Source: a virus. Taken from it: a stretch of DNA of 64,000 bases. Positions 1,679 to 32,810 of this stretch are shown one piece after another. Numbering within the stretch: position 1 is the stretch's first letter; each line of letters opens with the position of its first letter. The stretch spans positions 62,001 through 126,000 of IMG/VR virus record IMGVR_UViG_3300033553_000338, one strand, 5' to 3'. The translations under genes and the position numbers were made by a program. The notes below the pieces were generated by a model that worked only from the letters and a program-made list of their open reading frames with translations, was not told where the DNA came from and did no database searches.

Positions 1679-4645
1679 TTAGTTAATTATAAAATCAATC
1701 GTTTTGTCTGTGTCATTCCATTCAACCTTAAAGCCTTCCGCACCAGAGTCGTTCTTCACTTCAACATGCTTCCGAACTTCCGTATAACCTGCTACTACTA
1801 AATTAGTATGAATGTCTACTTTAGATCCATCGTGCCACACATCTACAGCTCTCCTTACTGTTCCATTATAAGAAAACCATGAGGAGACTGAAGTTCCAAC
1901 TCCGAAAGCAAATCCACCGGATGCATTATTTACAAATAAGGAATTAGAACTAATAACACTGGAACTCCATGCTTGAGCCATATCTACTTTTGCAGCTTTA
2001 ACTGTTCCACTCGATAAAATATTCCCAGATACATCAAGAACACTATCTGTAGGAACAACGGCATCAGACTCCCCATACCCAACGCGGATACCTCTAGCTA
2101 CTGTGAGAAGCCCGCTAGTCGTAAGTGCCATGGCACCACTACCTTGACCATGTGAGGAGTCGCCCCACCAGAAACCTCTTGTATCCATATTACTCATCTG
2201 GAAGGTCATAGCGTATTCATTAACAAGACCCCCAAATGTGAACCCACCCTGCATACCAATCGTGTACTCATTTGAAGTCCATACTCTAAGATGATCCCGA
2301 GAGGATGTAGCAAATGAGGTAATAGGTGAGCTAAATGTCTTAGCTCCGGAAATCGTTTCAGTTCCTGACTTGTGGACAATATCAGAGTCATTACTTGGGG
2401 TACGTGCGTTTGTTAGCCTAGAGTCATCAGTCTTTACTACAGCCTGTCCACCCACATATAGCGTGTTTGAAACTAATTTCATCCACTCCTGAAATGTTCC
2501 AGTACCTTCCATACCGACATCATAAGCTCTCCACACAAATGGCTCAGTATAGTCGTCTGATGTCCAAAACTCCATTGCCCCATCGTTGTTGGAGTAAGTG
2601 TACCGAATGCCGCCTGCATCATTTGCTGAGGTAGGAAGAAAGCGTATCTCCGGATTTGTGCCTGTTAAAGTTCCCCCGGTTAAAGGTAGATATGGATGAG
2701 AATGTGCAGGTGCTGCCCCTACTTCAGTGTAAGTATAGGAAGGCTTCGTTGCAGCTTTTGCCCATGTAGAAATAGCAGTCGAATCTAATTTAGTTGAGGG
2801 ATCAAAGTTCCCAGCATGCCACAATTTGAGCCAAGCCCCAAAGCTATTTGCAGTAATCCGTCTTATGTATAAATCATCGTTATCCGCAAAAGCAATCTGT
2901 TTCCCGTACGGTCCCGAATGGGATGTCATAGAGATTACCCCGTTTGCATTGTTTCCCGCAGTAGGTTTATTCAGTGCAGTTCCTGAAAAATTCCTATAGT
3001 CCAGACCGCCTACTGTGGATGGTAGCGTATTTAAGTCAGCTAGTCCGCTTCCTCTTATTTCTCCATGATAATGAACCGAGAGAGAGTATAAACCTGAATG
3101 ATCCCCCCAACCGTAGGCTGTATTCCATGCACTAATATTTGATAGGGTAACCCCTCTCCTATCGGCCCAGGAATTTAACCTCCTACCGGTGATCAGTCTC
3201 CCGGTGGCCGAGGTTGTACTGTCCGATTCCGCTTCACTTATTTCGGAATAAGTTGTATTGTTATCCGTACTGGAGATCGTAACCTTTTTAGTCGTAGCAT
3301 CGAAGCTAACACTGGTTGCACCGCTACCTTCAAATCGGATGCTGTCGTTGTTTGACCCCGCGCTAAACTGGGTAGTTCCAGCAGAGTTTGAGATGTTTTT
3401 GAAAATACTTTGCGAAGATCCCTTATCCGCATTGGTTATGGTGATATCCCCGGTACCGTAAAGCCGGCCAGTTAATGTACCGGCTAAGGTAACCCCTGAT
3501 CCCTGGATGATGGACCCCTTATTGAAAATAGGCTCATAAACTCCGGAGTGATTATGTGTAGAGCTGGCATAGCTCCCTGCAATTTGGTTACGGATATCCC
3601 TTGGATGCGCGTCAGATAATAAGGTGTGTGTAGCAAGTCCATGATCTCCATGGGATAAGGCTGCATAAAGCGTACTGTGACTATGGTTGCCCTCAGATAT
3701 AGTGCCAGCAGCAGTCCCAAAATCCTTATTAAACGCTGTGTTTTTTGTGAATGAGATTTCATTCCTAGTATCCCTTGGATGAGCAGTAGAAGATGCTGCA
3801 TGAGTGGCTAATCCATGATCCCCATGATCAACCGCAGCTGCACCTATATCCCCTGCTGTGAGATTTCGGGTGCTCCAATTTATAAGGTGCCCAGAGGCAT
3901 CAATACTAAGATTGGATACTATACTGGCAGCAGAAAGATTAGGCTTATCAACCCACGCCTTAACTGGGTGGAGATAATTATTTGCATACTCCTCAACCCC
4001 ATCTAATTTACCCTTATCCATTGAACTCATAAATCCGGACTGAAGAGGTGTAGCCGAGGAATGGACACTACCCCCGGATCCTACGTGGCTAATAGGGGCA
4101 TATAGTCCCGCGTGATCACCCCATGAAAATGCCTCATCCCACTCTGTTTGCTTTGTAGTTAGTGGGATACGGTACCCAGGAGACTCAGCAAATATACCAG
4201 TAAGTTTATCGTAAGTTATTCCGGTTACAGTTGCGTGCAGAGCAGCTTTGGCCCTGCCCTCGATATCATGGTCGTGATTACCAAAAGCCAATTGATTTGC
4301 CTCTGTACCAACACTCTTATTGGCCTGGAGAACATCAAACTTGATATCGTCCAGTACAGCAAACCCGGAAGGCTTGTTTTTAATGTAAGACTTAGATTCC
4401 GGATCGTACTCCTCAAAATCCGTCTGCACTTGATTGGCCACGTTAATTGTCCCATCTTCCCCAAAGGTGACATTTGTTCCAGGTTTCAGCTGTACAATAT
4501 CACCACCGGCACCCTCAGTGGAACCACCAGATGAAATTAGTCCAAGATCCTTCCAGGAAGATCCGGTCCAATAGTAAAGGTGTCGGTCCGAAGCAACGTA
4601 AGTCAGCCCTACACTTGGGTTATTTGGAAATACAATTTTAGCCAC
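1679..4645 (-). CDS. Long tail fibre protein
   Basis: A 988-aa protein that starts MAKIVFPNNPSVG. The first 35 residues contain LYYWTGSSWKDLG, a short tryptophan-rich head seen in fibre attachment regions. The shaft is low complexity and histidine rich, with two copies of a block containing HGDHGLATH followed by AHPRD, and several HxH motifs (NHDHD, NHSHS, HNHSG, HSHPY), which in phage fibres such as T4 gp37 coordinate metal ions along a trimeric shaft. The last third has beta-rich repeats and ends VEWNDTDKTIDFIIN. No chaperone or peptidase domain is obvious. It lies between the portal gene and the F5/8C fibre gene. A receptor-binding fibre is the best reading; a baseplate-attached appendage protein is the alternative. 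Confidence 0.8.
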   Translation of the reverse strand: MAKIVFPNNPSVGLTYVASDRHLYYWTGSSWKDLGLISSGGSTEGAGGDIVQLKPGTNVTFGEDGTINVANQVQTDFEEYDPESKSYIKNKPSGFAVLDDIKFDVLQANKSVGTEANQLAFGNHDHDIEGRAKAALHATVTGITYDKLTGIFAESPGYRIPLTTKQTEWDEAFSWGDHAGLYAPISHVGSGGSVHSSATPLQSGFMSSMDKGKLDGVEEYANNYLHPVKAWVDKPNLSAASIVSNLSIDASGHLINWSTRNLTAGDIGAAAVDHGDHGLATHAASSTAHPRDTRNEISFTKNTAFNKDFGTAAGTISEGNHSHSTLYAALSHGDHGLATHTLLSDAHPRDIRNQIAGSYASSTHNHSGVYEPIFNKGSIIQGSGVTLAGTLTGRLYGTGDITITNADKGSSQSIFKNISNSAGTTQFSAGSNNDSIRFEGSGATSVSFDATTKKVTISSTDNNTTYSEISEAESDSTTSATGRLITGRRLNSWADRRGVTLSNISAWNTAYGWGDHSGLYSLSVHYHGEIRGSGLADLNTLPSTVGGLDYRNFSGTALNKPTAGNNANGVISMTSHSGPYGKQIAFADNDDLYIRRITANSFGAWLKLWHAGNFDPSTKLDSTAISTWAKAATKPSYTYTEVGAAPAHSHPYLPLTGGTLTGTNPEIRFLPTSANDAGGIRYTYSNNDGAMEFWTSDDYTEPFVWRAYDVGMEGTGTFQEWMKLVSNTLYVGGQAVVKTDDSRLTNARTPSNDSDIVHKSGTETISGAKTFSSPITSFATSSRDHLRVWTSNEYTIGMQGGFTFGGLVNEYAMTFQMSNMDTRGFWWGDSSHGQGSGAMALTTSGLLTVARGIRVGYGESDAVVPTDSVLDVSGNILSSGTVKAAKVDMAQAWSSSVISSNSLFVNNASGGFAFGVGTSVSSWFSYNGTVRRAVDVWHDGSKVDIHTNLVVAGYTEVRKHVEVKNDSGAEGFKVEWNDTDKTIDFIIN

Positions 4646-4649
4646 AGTT

Positions 4650-4676
4650 TTTAATGATTAAGGTCTATTATACGAT
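4650..4676 (-). promoter_or_regulatory. TCGTATAATA-type intergenic motif before the fibre gene
   Basis: On the minus strand this reads ATCGTATAATAGACC followed by TTAATCATTAAAA, nearly the same as the element at 12800-12828 and the reverse-palindromic TTAATGATTAAA at 31360-31372. It overlaps the portal stop codon and precedes the fibre start by a few bases. It belongs to a recurring family that I read as phage promoters; no transcript evidence is available. Confidence 0.45.
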
Positions 4677-6974
4677 GTCTTTCCGAACCAATCGTTGCTG
4701 AGCATTGTCTGACATATACATCTGCTTCTCCTCAAGGTCAAGTGACCGGTCTTTTAGTTCCAGGACCCGGTCATTGTAATCTGTACGGCTGTCAAGATCC
4801 TTCTCTTTCAGCTCCAGATCTTTTTGATGTTTTTCTTTCTGTAACTGAAGCTCGGCCTGTTTAATATCAGACTGTACCTTATTCAAGCGTTCAATTTCTT
4901 TCTTGGCTTTCTCCACAACTTTGGTAAGCTCCTCCATCTCTTTATTCTTTTCTTCCAGAGCCTTGGAAAGATCACCATGTTTTTCTGCAATCTCAGCAGC
5001 GTATTCGATGATTTCGGAAGGATTGTCCATCATGACAATTCTCAGTCCGACCTCAACCGGCACAGCCCCTGTATTCATCGCAGCAGATACAATAGCCTTG
5101 GCCTCTTCCAACTTCGCTTTCTCAGCAGATGAATTGACCACCTTGATGCGGTAATTGGTGAAGCTAAAATATTTTGGAATGATGGAAAAGATAACTTTAC
5201 CCTCATTATATGTTCCTCTGTAATTATCATCCAGCGTAGTTTTCGACAAATTGATAAGATCTGTCAGCAAGTACTTCATCAGAACGTCATGTTCGTCATA
5301 CAAGTGCTTCAACACCAGTGATGAGTTGTTCATCCCTACCCTAACATTTGATACGGCTTCTCTTTGTTGGATCTCCCCGATCATTGCCGGGGTTACACCG
5401 GTGACCTTGGTGGCTTCCCCATCCAGATCCAGGATAGTTTGGTTGATCGCACTCAGCGACTCCCCGTTCACGGTCATATCAAAAGTACCATGAGTAGCCC
5501 CACTAACCGCAGCAGATCCTTCCTGGGTTGTATCCACCAAGTTTAGCCCGTTCTTGAGCATCTTGGAAGCTTTCAAAGCCCGTTCCATCTCGTTAACTCC
5601 ATAGAATTCCGGAATAGCAGAGTACTCTAGGGTCAGCCCACGGACACCGCTGTTAGCCAGCAGGTTGTCACGGTGAAAAACCATGATGTCATGTGTATCC
5701 TGGATATCCTTGCACTTCCAAAGGATGCTGTAGGTGCTGCCCCCACGATCTGAATGACGAACTCCGTTGAATGACAGGTAAACTTTATCAGGATCGGTAT
5801 CATGACGAACAGCGTCCTCAACAAGTCCCATGTCCAGGTAGATGCTGTCATCAACCCTGACGGACCGGAACAGGTGTTCCTTGATACGGGTTTTCCGGAT
5901 CTTCTCCGGGCCAACCACTACCCTACCCTCGCGGACATCATTTGGATCAATTTCGTATTCCGACAATCCGATCCATTCCGTCTCATAGACTTTGATCACT
6001 TCGGAATCATCACCAATCCCGTAGCGGTCCGGAGATGACTTTGCTAATTCAACATCCCGTTCCCCTTGCTGGTTGTATTCAGCTACAGTCATGTTGCTGG
6101 CCCAGGTCTCAGAAAACTTAACGGTACTGCACTGCATCAGCTCCTCACGCTCCTCATCTCCCATGAGATGTCCGTATTTCTGAAGAATGTCCCGTCTGCT
6201 CATGTAGCGGATGTAAACAAACTCCATCGCCTCGTTCATCATCATCTGATCCCTGCGCTTGGTGTAGTAAGCATTTTCCGGGATAAGAGCTTCCGGTTTT
6301 GGTTTCCTTCCTTTCTCAGTAGAGTACACGCGGTAAACCGCTTCCCCTACCACAGTCAGATCCATAAACAGGAGTGAACGAAGCATTGCCAAGTTAGCTA
6401 CCGGGCAATCGCGGTAATCCTCAATCAGGTTCACGGCACTCTCAAGGAACTTGTTACGCCATTTCCTGTTGGTTTCCGTCTTGGCCTGTTCGATTAAACG
6501 ATCAATAGCGGTAGGCTCCTCCCCCTCTTTCTTGGGTTTGACAGACTTTCCAAGACCTGCGTACAGGCTTGAAAGCAATTCAACAGATTGTTCCTGCTCC
6601 GCTAAGAACAGGGATTTATTGTCGGTTACTGTAACTTTGTAATCAAACTCGGTGGCTGACAAAAGGCCTACAAGCACATCAATCCGGTTACGAATAAGTG
6701 GAGTAAACTTGATTGCAGACGGTGACCCTACCCCGTAGTTATCTTCGAGGTATGCGAATTCCTTTTTATCGCGCAAACCGCTATAAAAATCCCGTTGTTT
6801 GAACATCAACTTTCTCCGTCTGGAGTTCTCGTCAACATTCCGATTGATCACCGCATCGGTCATCATCATCAGATAATCAAGGCTATCCCTTTTTTCTTCC
6901 AGGGACAGATTGAATTCATCAAATGCATCCCCTGGTTCGCCCAGGGAATCATTTCCTACGTCTTTGAAAGCCAT
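4668..6974 (-). CDS. Portal protein
   Basis: A 768-aa protein, long for a portal but in the range of the enlarged portals of Bacteroidetes podovirus-like phages. The N-terminal third has the pattern of portals: a helical start, then IKFTPLIRNRIDVLVGLL, a segment resembling the portal wing that anchors to the DNA-binding stem. The C-terminal 120 residues are a long charged coiled coil (KALEEKNKEMEELTKVVEKA onward), typical of the portal barrel/C-terminal region. It forms the dodecameric DNA gate at the capsid vertex and docks the terminase. It shares the minus-strand late block with the terminase, but the terminase gene is 2.2 kb upstream, separated by the partition cassette and the GroES-like gene. 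Assignment rests on size, architecture and context. Confidence 0.75.
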   Translation of the reverse strand: MAFKDVGNDSLGEPGDAFDEFNLSLEEKRDSLDYLMMMTDAVINRNVDENSRRRKLMFKQRDFYSGLRDKKEFAYLEDNYGVGSPSAIKFTPLIRNRIDVLVGLLSATEFDYKVTVTDNKSLFLAEQEQSVELLSSLYAGLGKSVKPKKEGEEPTAIDRLIEQAKTETNRKWRNKFLESAVNLIEDYRDCPVANLAMLRSLLFMDLTVVGEAVYRVYSTEKGRKPKPEALIPENAYYTKRRDQMMMNEAMEFVYIRYMSRRDILQKYGHLMGDEEREELMQCSTVKFSETWASNMTVAEYNQQGERDVELAKSSPDRYGIGDDSEVIKVYETEWIGLSEYEIDPNDVREGRVVVGPEKIRKTRIKEHLFRSVRVDDSIYLDMGLVEDAVRHDTDPDKVYLSFNGVRHSDRGGSTYSILWKCKDIQDTHDIMVFHRDNLLANSGVRGLTLEYSAIPEFYGVNEMERALKASKMLKNGLNLVDTTQEGSAAVSGATHGTFDMTVNGESLSAINQTILDLDGEATKVTGVTPAMIGEIQQREAVSNVRVGMNNSSLVLKHLYDEHDVLMKYLLTDLINLSKTTLDDNYRGTYNEGKVIFSIIPKYFSFTNYRIKVVNSSAEKAKLEEAKAIVSAAMNTGAVPVEVGLRIVMMDNPSEIIEYAAEIAEKHGDLSKALEEKNKEMEELTKVVEKAKKEIERLNKVQSDIKQAELQLQKEKHQKDLELKEKDLDSRTDYNDRVLELKDRSLDLEEKQMYMSDNAQQRLVRKDIV

Positions 6975-28671: not shown

Positions 28672-30282
28672 CTATAGGTCACTGAAGGCATCATCGCTGG
28701 TCTCCATTTCCTCCTTACCGGTGATCATACACTCTGTAGTGAGGATCATCCCTGCAACTGAGGAAGCATTGAGTAAAGCATTCTTTGCAACCAATGAAGG
28801 GTCAATTACTTTGGTGATTAGCATATCTCCAAAGTCACCAGTCCGTAGGTTCAGGCAAGAATGTATATCTCCCTTAAGAATCATTTCAGCAGCAGAGCCG
28901 ATGGCGTTCTTTTTGCCGGCATTTGTAAGAATGCACTGAAAGGGAGCATGTAATGCTTGCTTCATGATTTCCCAGGCGATAACGTCATGGGTGTTTGAGC
29001 TATTGTAGCTTAATACTGAAGCAGCTCTCAGGTAAGTGGCACCACCACCGGGCACAACTCCGTCTTGGATAGCCGAACGACAGGCCGCGAGAGCATCGTC
29101 AATCCGGTCAATCTTTTCGCGGATCTCAAATTCGGAGTATGCTCCAACATTGATTGTTGCAATACCCCCGGTGAACTTCGCGTAACGCTGACGGTTTTTC
29201 TTCAAGTCAAACTCATCATCTGATGAGGCTACTTGTTTTTCGATAATCTCTTTACGCAGAGCCTTAAGCTCATTGCTACCATGTCCACCAATAATGGTGG
29301 TTGAGTTTTCGGTAACGATTACTTTCTCAGCTGATCCCAGGTACACAGATTTAAAGGATCCCAACAGATAACCTCTGTCCGGGGCAAATACAGTTGCACC
29401 GGTCATAGCTGCTATGTCATCCAAAGTCTCAACGCGGTAGGAACCGTGTTCCGGTGTATGAGTAGCACAAATTTCTACAGCTCCTTTCATCCGGTTTAGG
29501 ATAAGGTTGTTTAATACTTTCTGATCGTACTCATTGGCAATGATCAGTATAGGTCTTTTTTGCTCTTTGGCATAAGTAAGTACCTGGACAATTTCAGCTA
29601 CCTTTTCAATCTTTGCCTGGCACACTAAGATCAATGGGTCTTTAAGGATACACTGTTTTTTGTCCGGAGTATTGGAAAACTGACTGTTAAGGAATCCTTT
29701 CATGTACTCCAGACCATCGGTGAAGGTCACAGTTGTTTCAAAAGATGAGGATTCACCCAGTTCAATGACCCCCTGGTATCCAATACGGGAATAGGCCTGG
29801 TAGATTAGGTTTCCGATCTCTGTATCATTGTTCGCGGATATTGTGGCCACTTCACGCAGGATGTCCAGGTCTACCGGACGTTTTACACGGTCGATAAACT
29901 CTACAATCTCCTGAACTCGCAGGTCGATGCAACGCTTAAGCTCGACAGGATTGACATCTTTTTTCAGTGCCTCCATGCCCAGCTTGGTGATTGCATGTGC
30001 TAAAACCGTAGCAGTGGTTGTACCGTCACCGGCATCATCGGAAGTCCTGGAAGCTACCTCCTTTACAATGTTAGCTCCAAGGTTCTCAAAGGGATCCTCA
30101 AGGGTAATACTTCGGGCCACAGTCACACCGTCTTTGGTAATGTGGGCTTTTCCGGAGTTTCTTTCAATAATCACATTTCGTCCCATAGGCCCTAAGGTGA
30201 CTGAGACTGCCTTTGCAAGGATGGTCAATCCACGAAGGATTGCTTCCCTTGACTCATCGTTGAATTTAATTTGTTTTGCCAT
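28672..30282 (-). CDS. groEL: Chaperonin GroEL
   Basis: 536 aa when started at MAKQIKFNDESR (ATG 30280-30282); an upstream in-frame extension of 19 residues is not conserved. Family motifs are clear: TLGPMGRNVIIE, KDGVTVA, DDAGDGTTTATVLAH (ATP phosphate loop, catalytic Asp after GTTT) and VPGGGATYLR. The apical domain is shortened and diverged, and the usual GGM-rich C-terminal tail is replaced by EEMETSDDAFSDL. It assists folding, probably of virion proteins, with the GroES-like product from 8533-9192 or the host GroES. It is a single minus-strand gene between plus-strand blocks and so has its own promoter, probably around 30325-30350, where plus and minus starts diverge. Confidence 0.95.
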   Translation of the reverse strand: MAKQIKFNDESREAILRGLTILAKAVSVTLGPMGRNVIIERNSGKAHITKDGVTVARSITLEDPFENLGANIVKEVASRTSDDAGDGTTTATVLAHAITKLGMEALKKDVNPVELKRCIDLRVQEIVEFIDRVKRPVDLDILREVATISANNDTEIGNLIYQAYSRIGYQGVIELGESSSFETTVTFTDGLEYMKGFLNSQFSNTPDKKQCILKDPLILVCQAKIEKVAEIVQVLTYAKEQKRPILIIANEYDQKVLNNLILNRMKGAVEICATHTPEHGSYRVETLDDIAAMTGATVFAPDRGYLLGSFKSVYLGSAEKVIVTENSTTIIGGHGSNELKALRKEIIEKQVASSDDEFDLKKNRQRYAKFTGGIATINVGAYSEFEIREKIDRIDDALAACRSAIQDGVVPGGGATYLRAASVLSYNSSNTHDVIAWEIMKQALHAPFQCILTNAGKKNAIGSAAEMILKGDIHSCLNLRTGDFGDMLITKVIDPSLVAKNALLNASSVAGMILTTECMITGKEEMETSDDAFSDL

Positions 30283-30324
30283 ATTATAACTAGAATTATT
30301 ATCTAGTAAGAATATAATCAAAAA

Positions 30325-30350
30325 TTGTCGTATAATCAATCTTAATTATT
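30325..30350 (+). promoter_or_regulatory. TTGTCGTATAATCAATCTTAATT motif in divergent gap
   Basis: The 87-nt gap between groEL and the next plus-strand gene contains TCGTATAATCAATC, a family member of TTCGTATAA, in plus orientation. A minus-strand AT-rich stretch (AGAATTATTATCTAG) next to groEL could hold its own promoter. Confidence 0.45.
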
Positions 30351-31326: not shown

Positions 31327-31346
31327 GAAACTATTGCAAATTTTTA

Positions 31347-31372
31347 TTTGTATAATAGTTTTTAATGATTAA
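31347..31372 (+). promoter_or_regulatory. TTTGTATAATAG motif with TTAATGATTAAA upstream of the RNA cluster
   Basis: TTTGTATAATAGTTTTTAATGATTAAATT is the same two-part element found inverted at 4650 and 12800. It is placed 44 nt upstream of the acceptor half of the tmRNA, as a promoter for the stable RNA operon would be. The basis is recurrence and position. Confidence 0.5.
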
Positions 31373-31399: not shown

Positions 31400-31464
31400 T
31401 CGATATAGTTCAATGCTACATTAAGTCGCATGTTTGGACCCGGGTTCGATTCCCGGCATCTCCA
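31400..31464 (+). ncRNA. ssrA: tmRNA acceptor half (3' tRNA-like part), permuted two-piece tmRNA
   Basis: This segment holds the 3' side of a tmRNA tRNA-like domain. The P2 3' strand is CTACAT (31416-31421), then a T-arm with stem CCGGG/CCCGG around the TTCGATT loop (31440-31456), then the acceptor strand CATCTCC (31457-31463) and a discriminator A (31464). No CCA is encoded. The 5' side, GGGGATG, is not here but 140 nt downstream at 31604, where it pairs with CATCTCC at six of seven Watson-Crick positions plus one G-U. The order acceptor half first, coding half second is that of the circularly permuted tmRNAs of alphaproteobacteria and some cyanobacteria. A short hairpin AGCTAT/ATAGTT sits just upstream at about 31393. 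The 5' end of the acceptor RNA is not determined. Confidence 0.85.
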
Positions 31465-31603
31465 CTCGTAGTCCAATTAAAAGAAGAAGTTGTCCGGGTA
31501 ATTCCCGGCTGATCTTAGGAGATTTTTGGGGTAGCCTAAGAAAGAATGACAAAAACATTTTCGGAAGTACTATAGGTACGTTATACCGGATTTGCCCATC
31601 CAC

Positions 31604-31750
31604 GGGGATGACTGGTTTTGACAGGTGTGTAGAAGTGATGTAGGGAACACAAGCAGTTTTTTAAACGGCAAAACAATTCCATTATTTAGCAACGCGCAGG
31701 TCAGACTTGCAGCGTAGTTAACGGTTTCTCCTGGCTCCGTAATGCCGGGA
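31604..31750 (+). ncRNA. ssrA: tmRNA coding half with proteolysis tag, permuted two-piece tmRNA
   Basis: The 5' end GGGGATG (31604-31610) is followed by ACTGGTTTTGACAGG, the tmRNA D-loop signature. ATGTAG (31638-31643) is the P2 5' strand, complementary to CTACAT in the acceptor half; GTGTGT/GCATGT adds wobble pairs. The resume codon is probably GGC at 31667, after TTTTTTAAAC. The tag reads GKTIPLFSNAQVRLAA followed by TAG at 31715-31717, preceded by the charged alanine. The LAA ending is the ClpXP degron. A hairpin TCCTGG/CCGGGA (31729-31734 and 31745-31750) follows the tag and marks the likely end of this piece. Trans-translation would tag proteins on stalled ribosomes. No SmpB gene is in the window. 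Confidence 0.87.
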
Positions 31751-31753
31751 AAT

Positions 31754-31893
31754 GGGAAAGTAGCTCAGTTGGTAGAGCTGGAGGCTGAACGCCTCTGGAG
31801 AGCCTCGGAAACACGGATGCGTGTTTTGTCAGTAAAGGCCAACGAATCGGGGGACATCCCGAAAGTGCGTAGGTTCGAGTCCTACCTATCCCA
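31754..31893 (+). tRNA. tRNA-like element 1 (Phe-type anticodon GAA) with 70-nt insert
   Basis: Acceptor GGGAAAG/CTATCCC (one A-A mismatch), canonical D-arm GCTC...GAGC, and an anticodon arm at 31780-31796 with loop CTGAACG, hence GAA (position 37 is C, normally a purine). The T-arm is GTAGG/CCTAC around TTCGAGT (31869-31885). Between the anticodon arm and T-arm there are 72 nt instead of about 5. This insert holds a perfect 7-bp hairpin AAACACG-GATG-CGTGTTT (31809-31826) and a CGGG/CCCG hairpin at 31848-31861. It begins 3 nt after the tmRNA coding half, so both come from one precursor. No CCA encoded. Function as a normal tRNA is doubtful without removal of the insert. Confidence 0.65.
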
Positions 31894-31932
31894 CAACTAA
31901 AATCAGCTATTATGGTAGTTTACCCTTTAGTA

Positions 31933-32076
31933 GCGGATGTGCCGAATGTGACAATCTTTGCGAAATGCATTGAGATCCGGTGGTTCTATAAAATCGAAAA
32001 ACCACTGGGTAAATTAACCAAGAACACTTGCCTTAGGCCGAATTTGGGGTTCGGTAACTAAGCAAAGCACATTCGT
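31933..32076 (+). ncRNA. Structured RNA of unknown class
   Basis: Ends pair: CGGATGTG (31934-31941) with CACATTCG (32068-32075). Next inside, CTTTGC (31956-31961) pairs with GCAAAG (32062-32067). A strong internal hairpin CCGGTGGTT/AACCACTGG (31977-31985 and 32000-32008, one G-U) and a small one CCGAA/TTCGG (32038-32042 and 32050-32054) complete the fold. It has no T-arm or anticodon and matches no class that I can name. It lies between tRNA-like elements and could be processed together with them. Confidence 0.6.
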
Positions 32077-32079
32077 AAT

Positions 32080-32100
32080 CCCGGGATGGTTTATCCCGGG
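32080..32100 (+). other. Perfect hairpin between structured RNA and tRNA-Ser
   Basis: CCCGGGAT at 32080-32087 pairs with ATCCCGGG at 32093-32100 around GGTTT. It lacks a T tract, so an RNA processing signal or stabiliser is more likely than a terminator. Confidence 0.6.
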
Positions 32101-32105
32101 TACAA

Positions 32106-32194
32106 GGAGAGTTGGGTAAGAGGCTTAAGCCACCGGTTTGCTAAACCGGCGTACAGATTAAACTGTACCGGGGGTTCGAATCCCTCACTCTCCG
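32106..32194 (+). tRNA. tRNA-Ser (GCT)
   Basis: A well-formed class II tRNA: acceptor GGAGAGT/ACTCTCC, D-arm GGGTAAGAGGCTTAAGCC-type, anticodon stem ACCGG/CCGG.. with loop TTGCTAA (anticodon GCT, reading AGC and AGT), long variable arm GTACAG/CTGTAC, T-arm GGGGG/TCCC.. with TTCGAAT, discriminator G. No CCA encoded. The only element of the cluster that is entirely canonical. Confidence 0.92.
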
Positions 32195-32205
32195 CTGAAA
32201 TGTAT

Positions 32206-32333
32206 AGGGATATGACGGAATTGGTAGACGCTAAAGATGGAGGTATGAAACAATCAAGCTGCATTGTGCATGATGTGTAGAGCATGTTAGTAATATCTGT
32301 GAAGTCGTGCAGGTTCGAATCCTGCTATCTCTT
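32206..32333 (+). tRNA. tRNA-like element 2 (Leu-type D-arm) with insert
   Basis: Acceptor AGGGATA/TATCTCT (7 bp, one G-T) and T-arm GCAGG/CCTGC around TTCGAAT. The D-arm ACGGAATTGGTAGACGC is the Leu class II form. No normal anticodon arm follows: AAGAT and ATATCT flank about 50 nt containing ACAAT/ATTGT and GCATG repeats. Total 128 nt against 85-88 for tRNA-Leu. Possible anticodons (GGA, CAA) cannot be settled. Confidence 0.6.
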
Positions 32334-32345
32334 AAAATTAAACAT

Positions 32346-32519
32346 GTATGTCTGTCCCAGTTGGGGGAGCATCTGGAGCACAAGGAAAGGGAGTCATGCC
32401 CCGGAACTTGTGTTCATGTACAATACCTGGAGTTTTTGTAAAAGTGTACATATTACACAAACTCCAATCATTGTCTTATGGAAACAAAAGGATGTAGGGT
32501 TCGAATCCCTGGATATACT
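32346..32519 (+). tRNA. tRNA-like element 3 with ~100-nt structured insert
   Basis: Acceptor GTATGTC/GATATAC (one G-T) and T-arm TAGGG/CCCTG around TTCGAAT. D-arm TCCC-AGTTGG-GGGA. Directly after it, CATCT pairs with GGATG just before the T-stem, leaving no variable loop, which resembles the P2 junction of tmRNA more than a tRNA. Inside lie hairpin CACAAG/CTTGTG (32379-32384 and 32407-32412) and hairpin TGGAGTTT/AAACTCCA (32428-32435 and 32459-32466) with an inner GTGTA/TACAC. ATGTACA and TGTACAT could form a further pseudoknot. No standard anticodon arm is visible. Confidence 0.6.
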
Positions 32520-32620
32520 CTGATACAAAAGACGGAAACAGGCATCGGTCCGGATTTGAATGGAGATACCATAGGCTTTCAGCGTAGGCTGATGATGCGG
32601 AAAACTAAGTCTTTTTATCT

Positions 32621-32687
32621 GGACCTCTATCACTTTAGAATGGTTGCCCTTGGCTCAAGGGTTCAGGTTCGATTCCTGAGAGGTCCG
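32621..32687 (+). tRNA. Short atypical tRNA (67 nt)
   Basis: Acceptor GGACCTC/GAGGTCC, perfect 7 bp. D-stem ATCA/TGGT with loop CTTTAGAA, anticodon hairpin CCCTT/AAGGG with only GGCTC between (GGC would be Ala), T-arm TCAGG/CCTGA around TTCGATT, discriminator G. It has a one-base variable region, so it is minimal. Upstream, 32520-32620 holds about 100 nt that folds (GCATCG/TGATGC) and where GGTCCGG could compete with the acceptor strand. Confidence 0.6.
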
Positions 32688-32724
32688 CTTAGTTGGTTGG
32701 TTAGTTTTTTAGTGTTGGTTTTTT

Positions 32725-32796
32725 AGGTCTTTAGCTCAGTTGGAAGAGCGTTAGGTTCACCCCTAAAGGTCCCGGGTTCGAGTCCCGGAAGGCCCC
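32725..32796 (+). tRNA. tRNA (Val-type CAC suggested), six-nt anticodon loop
   Basis: Acceptor AGGTCTT/AAGGCCC (first pair A-C), D-arm GCTC-AGTTGGAA-GAGC, anticodon stem TTAGG/CCTAA perfect, loop TTCACC with six instead of seven bases, T-arm CCGGG/CCCGG around TTCGAGT. If base 37 is missing, the anticodon is CAC (Val). Alternatively a sequencing deletion. No CCA encoded. Confidence 0.7.
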
Positions 32797-32810
32797 CAAA
32801 TTTAGTAACA

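Follow-up and report, generated by a model that had tools for sequence, protein, structure and literature searches.

A circularly permuted tmRNA gene in a crAss-like phage genome and its relatives in other Bacteroidota-linked phages

The DNA analysed here (the window) is a stretch of 64,000 nucleotides that corresponds to positions 62001-126000 of the IMG/VR virus record IMGVR_UViG_3300033553_000338, whose whole length is 157,880 bp. Positions 31416-31717 of the window hold a circularly permuted transfer-messenger RNA (tmRNA) gene, in which the half containing the 3' part of the tRNA-like domain comes first and is separated by an intervening sequence (IVS) from the half containing the tag. A two-piece tmRNA had been proposed at this place by a sequence-only reading, made without database searches, and all the motifs quoted in that reading lie exactly where it put them. 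ARAGORN called the gene as permuted (tmRNA*) and returned precisely the tag GKTIPLFSNAQVRLAA. The Rfam model RF04321 (tmRNA_permuted) aligned to it end to end, over model positions 1-213 of 213 and without truncation, scoring 67.5 bits (cut-off 47; E 7.5e-11 in the 64-kb window). The one-piece model RF00023 reached at best 22.8 bits against a cut-off of 47 when the entire record was searched, which rules out a one-piece reading; a better score of such a model was one of the refuting outcomes named in the sequence-only reading. The alpha, beta and cyanobacterial tmRNA models (RF01849-RF01851), which the sequence-only reading had named as a check together with ARAGORN, gave nothing above their cut-offs in the window; beta_tmRNA alone appeared, with 38 bits versus 84. 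A chance origin was also ruled out by the Rfam E-value and by shuffling, since ARAGORN made no tmRNA call in 150 dinucleotide-preserving shuffles of the window, and a separate scan for the acceptor, T-arm and D-loop motifs found one site in the window and none in the shuffles.

The acceptor stem is fully paired (7/7, GGGGATG with CATCTCC) and closes only in the permuted order. It contains the G3:U70 alanine identity pair, and the CCA end is not encoded. As a structured element, the IVS shows no excess RNA stability (z 0.24 for the fold of 31464-31603), and its length in the relatives ranges from about 16 to 231 nt. The resume codon GGC has UAAAC ahead of it, and the tag comprises 16 residues with an LAA end that would suit ClpXP-type proteolysis. 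The hairpin after the tag stop, of a kind also present in two related loci (L316 and L180), probably belongs to the 3' end region of that RNA piece, the coding one.

Covariation was analysed in ten distinct related permuted tmRNAs over the 19 pairs of the acceptor, T and P2 helices, using alignment rows cut by hand around the motifs, in which the helices of a prophage copy and of Bohxovirus require a bulge. In this set 94.2% of the cells are paired, 15/19 pairs have changed on both sides and the remaining four are invariant; the covariation score was 0.732, compared with 0.177 +/- 0.038 for shuffles and no more than 0.157 when the partners were slid. Within the acceptor stem, four of the seven pairs covary and three never vary, G3:U70 being the same in 10/10 sequences. 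All seven P2 pairs tested have changed on both sides, with 85.7% of their cells paired, for example TTTGGTA/TACCAAA in cr130_1, ACCAGCA/TGTTGGT in cr273_1, and TCTGTCT/AGACAGA in cr124_1. The predicted acceptor, T and P2 helices are thus supported by compensatory changes, and the pairing support in related phages that the sequence-only reading had set as a test was found. Its placement of P2 stood in part: the two halves do pair, but the conserved helix joins the bases just before the T-arm with those just after the D-loop, that is, GCATGTTT with AGGTGTGT, and the CTACAT/ATGTAG pairing it had quoted is a possible distal extension.

Table 1. Features of the permuted tmRNA locus (window positions).
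Feature	Position	Strand	Basis
Terminator-like hairpin AAACTATT...AATAGTTTTT, between the upstream gene and the tmRNA	31327..31363	+	sequence, fold
Acceptor half (3' part of tRNA-like domain, comes first)	31416..31464	+	sequence, ARAGORN, RF04321, covariation
Possible distal P2 strand CTACAT	31416-31421	+	sequence
P2 3' strand GCATGTTT, then GGAC	31428-31435	+	sequence, covariation
T-arm CCGGG-TTCGATT-CCCGG	31440-31456	+	sequence
Acceptor 3' strand CATCTCC	31457-31463	+	sequence
Discriminator A31464	31464	+	sequence
IVS of 139 nt separating the two halves; removal from the precursor expected	31465..31603	+	position between halves
Start of coding half	31604..31643	+	sequence, RF04321, covariation
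Acceptor 5' strand GGGGATG; RNase P cut expected 5' of 31604	31604-31610	+	
D-loop region ACTGGTTTTGAC	31611-31622	+	sequence
P2 5' strand AGGTGTGT	31623-31630	+	sequence, covariation
Possible distal P2 strand ATGTAG	31638-31643	+	sequence
Tag frame GKTIPLFSNAQVRLAA, then TAG (GGC...GCG-TAG)	31667..31717	+	ARAGORN coding part
Hairpin CCTGGC-TCCGTAAT-GCCGGG after the tag stop	31730..31749	+	fold

The terminase large subunit (TerL) of the record matches those of crAss-like phages (34% identity over 87% with MT835470 and 30% with cr130_1), and its major capsid protein belongs to phrog_11589 (major head protein), with 36.5% in MT835470. The genome also encodes rIIA/rIIB, a GroEL-like protein, an ATP-dependent ligase, a DNA polymerase, a Dda-like helicase, and a primase. 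A scan with the single TerL sequence gave no match, and alignment scans gave about 100 loci; in the terminase tree, examined for placement in a named Crassvirales family, the TerL of the window forms a long, deep branch inside no starred set. Judged from these genes, the source genome is a deep-branching crAss-like phage. The hosts of Crassvirales are Bacteroidota (PMC7886860). The assignment to a Bacteroidota phage, made earlier from the letters of the window, is borne out by TerL and the capsid protein as well as by a sister tmRNA in a crAss-like prophage, described below.

The RF04321 search of 54 crAss-like records revealed permuted tmRNAs in cr124_1, cr130_1, cr273_1, and a 108-kb record (G017), all confirmed by ARAGORN or by direct reading. 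The gene is found in 6/6 Oafivirinae RefSeq genomes retrieved by similarity (cr7_1, cr124_1, cr130_1, cr131_1, cr272_1, and cr273_1), where it is labelled 'transfer-messenger RNA, SsrA' without mention of permutation, and it lies unannotated in Bohxovirus (PV686213, 70.6 bits) and in Dulem virus 42. The acceptor stems of this crAss-like set have 7 bp in the permuted order with G3:U70, with one mismatch in cr272_1, and every crAss-like permuted tmRNA examined has U before GA in the D-loop. The Oafivirinae tmRNAs thus share with that of the window the permuted order, G3:U70, the D-loop U and a covarying P2, but they differ from it in their tags (GNxN..VDYT.VA, mostly ending in VA and not in LAA) and in having a 5' hairpin with a GATC loop. 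This hairpin, common to the Oafivirinae loci L177-L179 and L342-L346, precedes the acceptor half, and a recurring CCTAC-AAAGTGG-like motif follows the tag; both have the appearance of structured elements within the two RNAs. Within the IVS of cr130_1 (L178), a tRNA-like stretch GACTATTCC...GGATAGTCG was noted by eye. The sequence-only reading had considered a permuted tmRNA in a Bacteroidetes phage unusual. The permuted form holds, but the gene is not unique, because phage-borne permuted tmRNAs are known and crAss-like ones already sit in RefSeq labelled as tmRNA.

The cultured phages immuto, Mel-JY01, BF486P1, TCUEAP2, B40-8, crAss001, and crAss002 gave no permuted match, and a pattern built from the 5' half of the window and prophage genes had no match in viral_contigs. 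When 18 'negative' crAss-like records were checked with a T-arm/acceptor pattern, two matches with one mismatch were obtained, in G025 (L347) and G046 (L348), the former showing no tmRNA by motif scan. On the TerL tree, whose branches are long, the permuted label needs at least three changes.

Other crAss-like phages carry tmRNAs of different architecture. Standard tmRNAs scored above the cut-off in seven records (G005, G007, G009, G016, G022, G038, and G047), and weaker ones, standard by eye, are present in MT835492 and G004. Those of G005, G009, G016, G022, G038, and G047 are also phage-borne, often with long tags, but unlike the window gene they have the standard order. A third form is found in G014 (L200, G014:C1 at about 35.7 kb), a standard-order tmRNA whose T-loop is split by a group I intron (RF00028, 84.2 bits). 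Its 3' exon is found about 0.85 kb further downstream; the insert is therefore long and may contain a homing endonuclease gene. The G014 tag, GKVVNFTSRMTRLAA, resembles that of the window (shuffle fraction 0.003, with the last three residues held), and its likeness to the prophage tag was matched in 0/2,000 shuffles. The window tag also resembles those of the prophage (L316, GKVIQMNNAPVRLAA) and of a further phage locus (L064, GKTINLFERTQLKAVA), no shuffle among 2,000-5,000 being as similar.

Bacteroidota themselves have the one-piece gene. Standard tmRNAs were found at 127-163 bits in 15/15 Bacteroidota genomes, nearly all with tags of the GENNYALAA kind, and above the cut-off in 16/16 checked genomes when G297 is included. 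These chromosomal tmRNAs (RF00023) resemble that of the window in the D-loop TGGNTTTGAC and in the T-arm/acceptor, nearly to identity in the prophage case, but they have the standard order, about 400 nt and a GENNYALAA-type tag. A second, weaker tmRNA-like match (48.6 bits) lies beside the host's own gene in a Chryseobacterium genome (G062:C1:56683-57014), possibly in a prophage. A permuted match above the cut-off appeared in only 1/396 Bacteroidota genomes, G297 (63.1 bits), which has its own standard tmRNA besides (160 bits, tag GEDNYALAA). The permuted copy, L316, is located at 986 kb of a 1.61-Mb contig, where a terminase of crAss-like type (910 kb, E 2.7e-74) lies to one side and a tyrosine integrase (997-998 kb) to the other; genes for a ligase, rIIA, a DnaB-like helicase, PolA, and giant proteins (L328-L331 and L341) are found around it. 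Since L316 lies between a crAss-like terminase and an integrase, a crAss-like prophage carries the sister tmRNA in a Bacteroidota chromosome. The prophage region spans approximately 910-998 kb of G297:C1; to our knowledge, temperate crAss-like phages have been little described.

The record comes from a metagenomic assembly, and a chimeric contig joining a bacterial tmRNA to phage DNA could therefore be imagined. We consider this extremely improbable: the tmRNA sits within a continuous cluster of phage genes and tRNAs, complete crAss-like RefSeq genomes and the prophage of the 1.6-Mb contig have a gene of this form too, and, outside that prophage, none of the Bacteroidota chromosomes searched has a permuted gene.

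The D-loop pattern retrieved 16 permuted tmRNAs from IMG/VR, 14 of them with C before GAC and two with U. We infer that the two U-bearing ones are L063 and L064, both reading TTTTGACAGG. The tRNA-like core of L063 is identical to that of the window; its contig encodes a baseplate protein that shares about 43% identity with its counterpart in Flavobacterium phage immuto and 46% with the one in Microcystis phage Mel-JY01, and the host is therefore less sure. The tag of L064 was read by eye, and the portal protein of its contig matches Bacteroides phage B40-8 as well as Flavobacterium, Parabacteroides, and Croceibacter phages; when the L064 tmRNA was used as query, the phages collection yielded no close relative among cultured Bacteroidota phages. 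Thus, tmRNAs of this kind are present in at least three unrelated sorts of Bacteroidota-linked phage, i.e., crAss-like, B40-8-like, and immuto-like, and therefore horizontal transfer is the simplest account, which fits the patchy terminase tree.

The window element is, with high probability, a complete circularly permuted tmRNA gene of a crAss-like Bacteroidota phage, belonging to a lineage spread across several unrelated phage families. Some observations weigh against this reading. The window P2 beside the D-loop is G-U rich (5/8 pairs). The nearest named crAss-like genomes checked (MT835470, cr4_1, crAss001, and crAss002) gave no permuted match, and the gene is therefore dispensable. The weak P2, the patchiness of the gene among relatives and the tmRNA that the host already has would also fit a tmRNA-like decoy or a decaying copy that tags no protein, as in phage DS6A, whose tag-less tmRNA form inhibits the host tmRNA. 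A decoy is nevertheless improbable, since the tag frame is intact and has its resume context and stop codon, relatives carry similar tags, the acceptor and T stems pair perfectly, and compensatory changes are seen.

Regarding the origin of the gene, bacterial tmRNA is believed to have been permuted just a few times, giving rise to an alpha, a beta, and a cyanobacterial lineage. We lean towards a fourth two-piece lineage in Bacteroidota phages, which would have arisen, possibly more than once, by permutation of a phage-carried Bacteroidota-type one-piece tmRNA and would have spread horizontally among crAss-like, B40-8-like, and immuto-like phages, with standard, intron-bearing, and permuted forms coexisting in Crassvirales. 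That the permutation was independent of the alpha, beta, and cyanobacterial lineages seems likewise somewhat probable. The other possible source, a transfer of the already permuted gene from one of those lineages or their phages, agrees with the sub-threshold beta_tmRNA match and with the likeness to L023 and L036, two ordinary permuted phage tmRNAs to which the window is about 90% identical in the short and conserved 48-nt tRNA-like core; over the same core the window is 88% identical to the best Bacteroidota host, so the two origins are not separated there. Nor was the tRNA-like core alone decisive, the group mean identities falling in the same range (0.75-0.76) for hosts and for other permuted phages. 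Such a transfer is doubtful on other grounds. The crAss-like permuted tmRNAs have the D-loop U, as do 15/16 Bacteroidota hosts, whereas ordinary permuted phage tmRNAs mostly have C (L063 and L064 being the exceptions), although 39/40 phage matches to the same pattern not labelled as permuted also have U, so that this base is not Bacteroidota-specific and argues only against the known permuted lineages. RF04321 gives 108-140 bits for three ordinary permuted phage tmRNAs versus 35-71 for the Bacteroidota-phage set, and the models of the known lineages stay below their cut-offs. Moreover, the tags of the window and L316 resemble that of the standard-order, intron-bearing G014, and the prophage core is closest to Bacteroidota hosts (96%).

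In bacteria, tRNA enzymes process tmRNA, CCA is added, alanyl-tRNA synthetase charges it via G3:U70, SmpB delivers it to the ribosome, and translation goes from the resume codon to a stop codon where the ribosome is released. By analogy, we infer that the phage RNA, whose gene structure, base pairing and distribution are documented above, may work likewise. A single precursor, acceptor half first, would be cut by host tRNA-processing enzymes 5' of G31604 and near A31464, losing the 139-nt spacer, and the two resulting RNAs would stay joined through pairing in the acceptor stem and in P2. The host CCA-adding enzyme would mature the acceptor end, and host alanyl-tRNA synthetase would charge it. 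No SmpB family protein was found in the record, and therefore host SmpB would have to serve, bringing the charged tmRNA to ribosomes stalled during infection. The resume codon would start the tag, Ala-GKTIPLFSNAQVRLAA would be added, and the ribosome would be released at TAG. The proposal that the virus has its own trans-translation tag is thus borne out as sequence, and cleavage, charging and tagging would follow as outlined. The likely benefit would be to keep ribosomes in use when mRNAs break during infection; similar roles are proposed in PMC9004378.

Downstream of the tmRNA there is a row of odd tRNA-like genes (31754-32797; individually 31754-31893, 32206-32335, 32346-32519, 32621-32687, and 32725-32797). 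The first resembles tRNA-Pro(GGG) but has 63 nt inserted into its anticodon loop; the row also includes two T-arm/acceptor pairs with spans of 127 and 173 nt, a 66-nt gene in which no D-arm is clear, and another whose anticodon loop has 6 nt. The GroEL-like gene (28672-30339; phrog_5725, E 3e-142) has closest full-length phage matches only about 42% identical, and the search for close relatives in IMG/VR gave one locus, 41% identical, with no tmRNA there.

A phage-borne permuted tmRNA is already known in kind. In PMC9004378, ARAGORN suggested permuted tmRNAs for 53/133 unique phage tmRNA structures, 50 of the 53 being marine or aquatic. Methylophilales phage Melnitz and the pelagimyophages described there also carry a permuted tmRNA in a tailed-phage genome, but theirs are SAR11/alpha-like by the tree of that paper, whereas that of the window is in a crAss-like phage with relatives in other Bacteroidota phages, and the Rfam search of the window matched no glutamine riboswitch family. 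With the two-piece tmRNAs of RF04321 (and RF01849 alpha, RF01850 beta, RF01851 cyano), the window gene shares the order acceptor half, IVS, coding half, the tRNA-like core, G3:U70 and a tag ending in AA; it differs from RF04321 members in a score well below the typical, U instead of C in the D-loop, the 16-residue tag and its Bacteroidota phage. We found no paper on tmRNA in crAss-like phages, although the supplements of PMC9004378 may include them, and none that calls the Oafivirinae tmRNAs permuted. Earlier work has apparently described neither the Bacteroidota-phage lineage nor its horizontal spread, nor the coexistence of three gene forms within a single phage order.

The recurrent permuted form in phages of one-piece hosts probably represents a lineage of two-piece tmRNA in viruses that has so far gone unrecognised. 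If this is true, a single phage lineage would contain all three tmRNA gene forms together with traceable tags, making the route from one-piece to two-piece directly testable. Human-gut crAss-like phages (Oafivirinae) would bring their own ribosome-rescue RNA into hosts that have the one-piece form only, and the phage degradation tags would be unlike those of the host.
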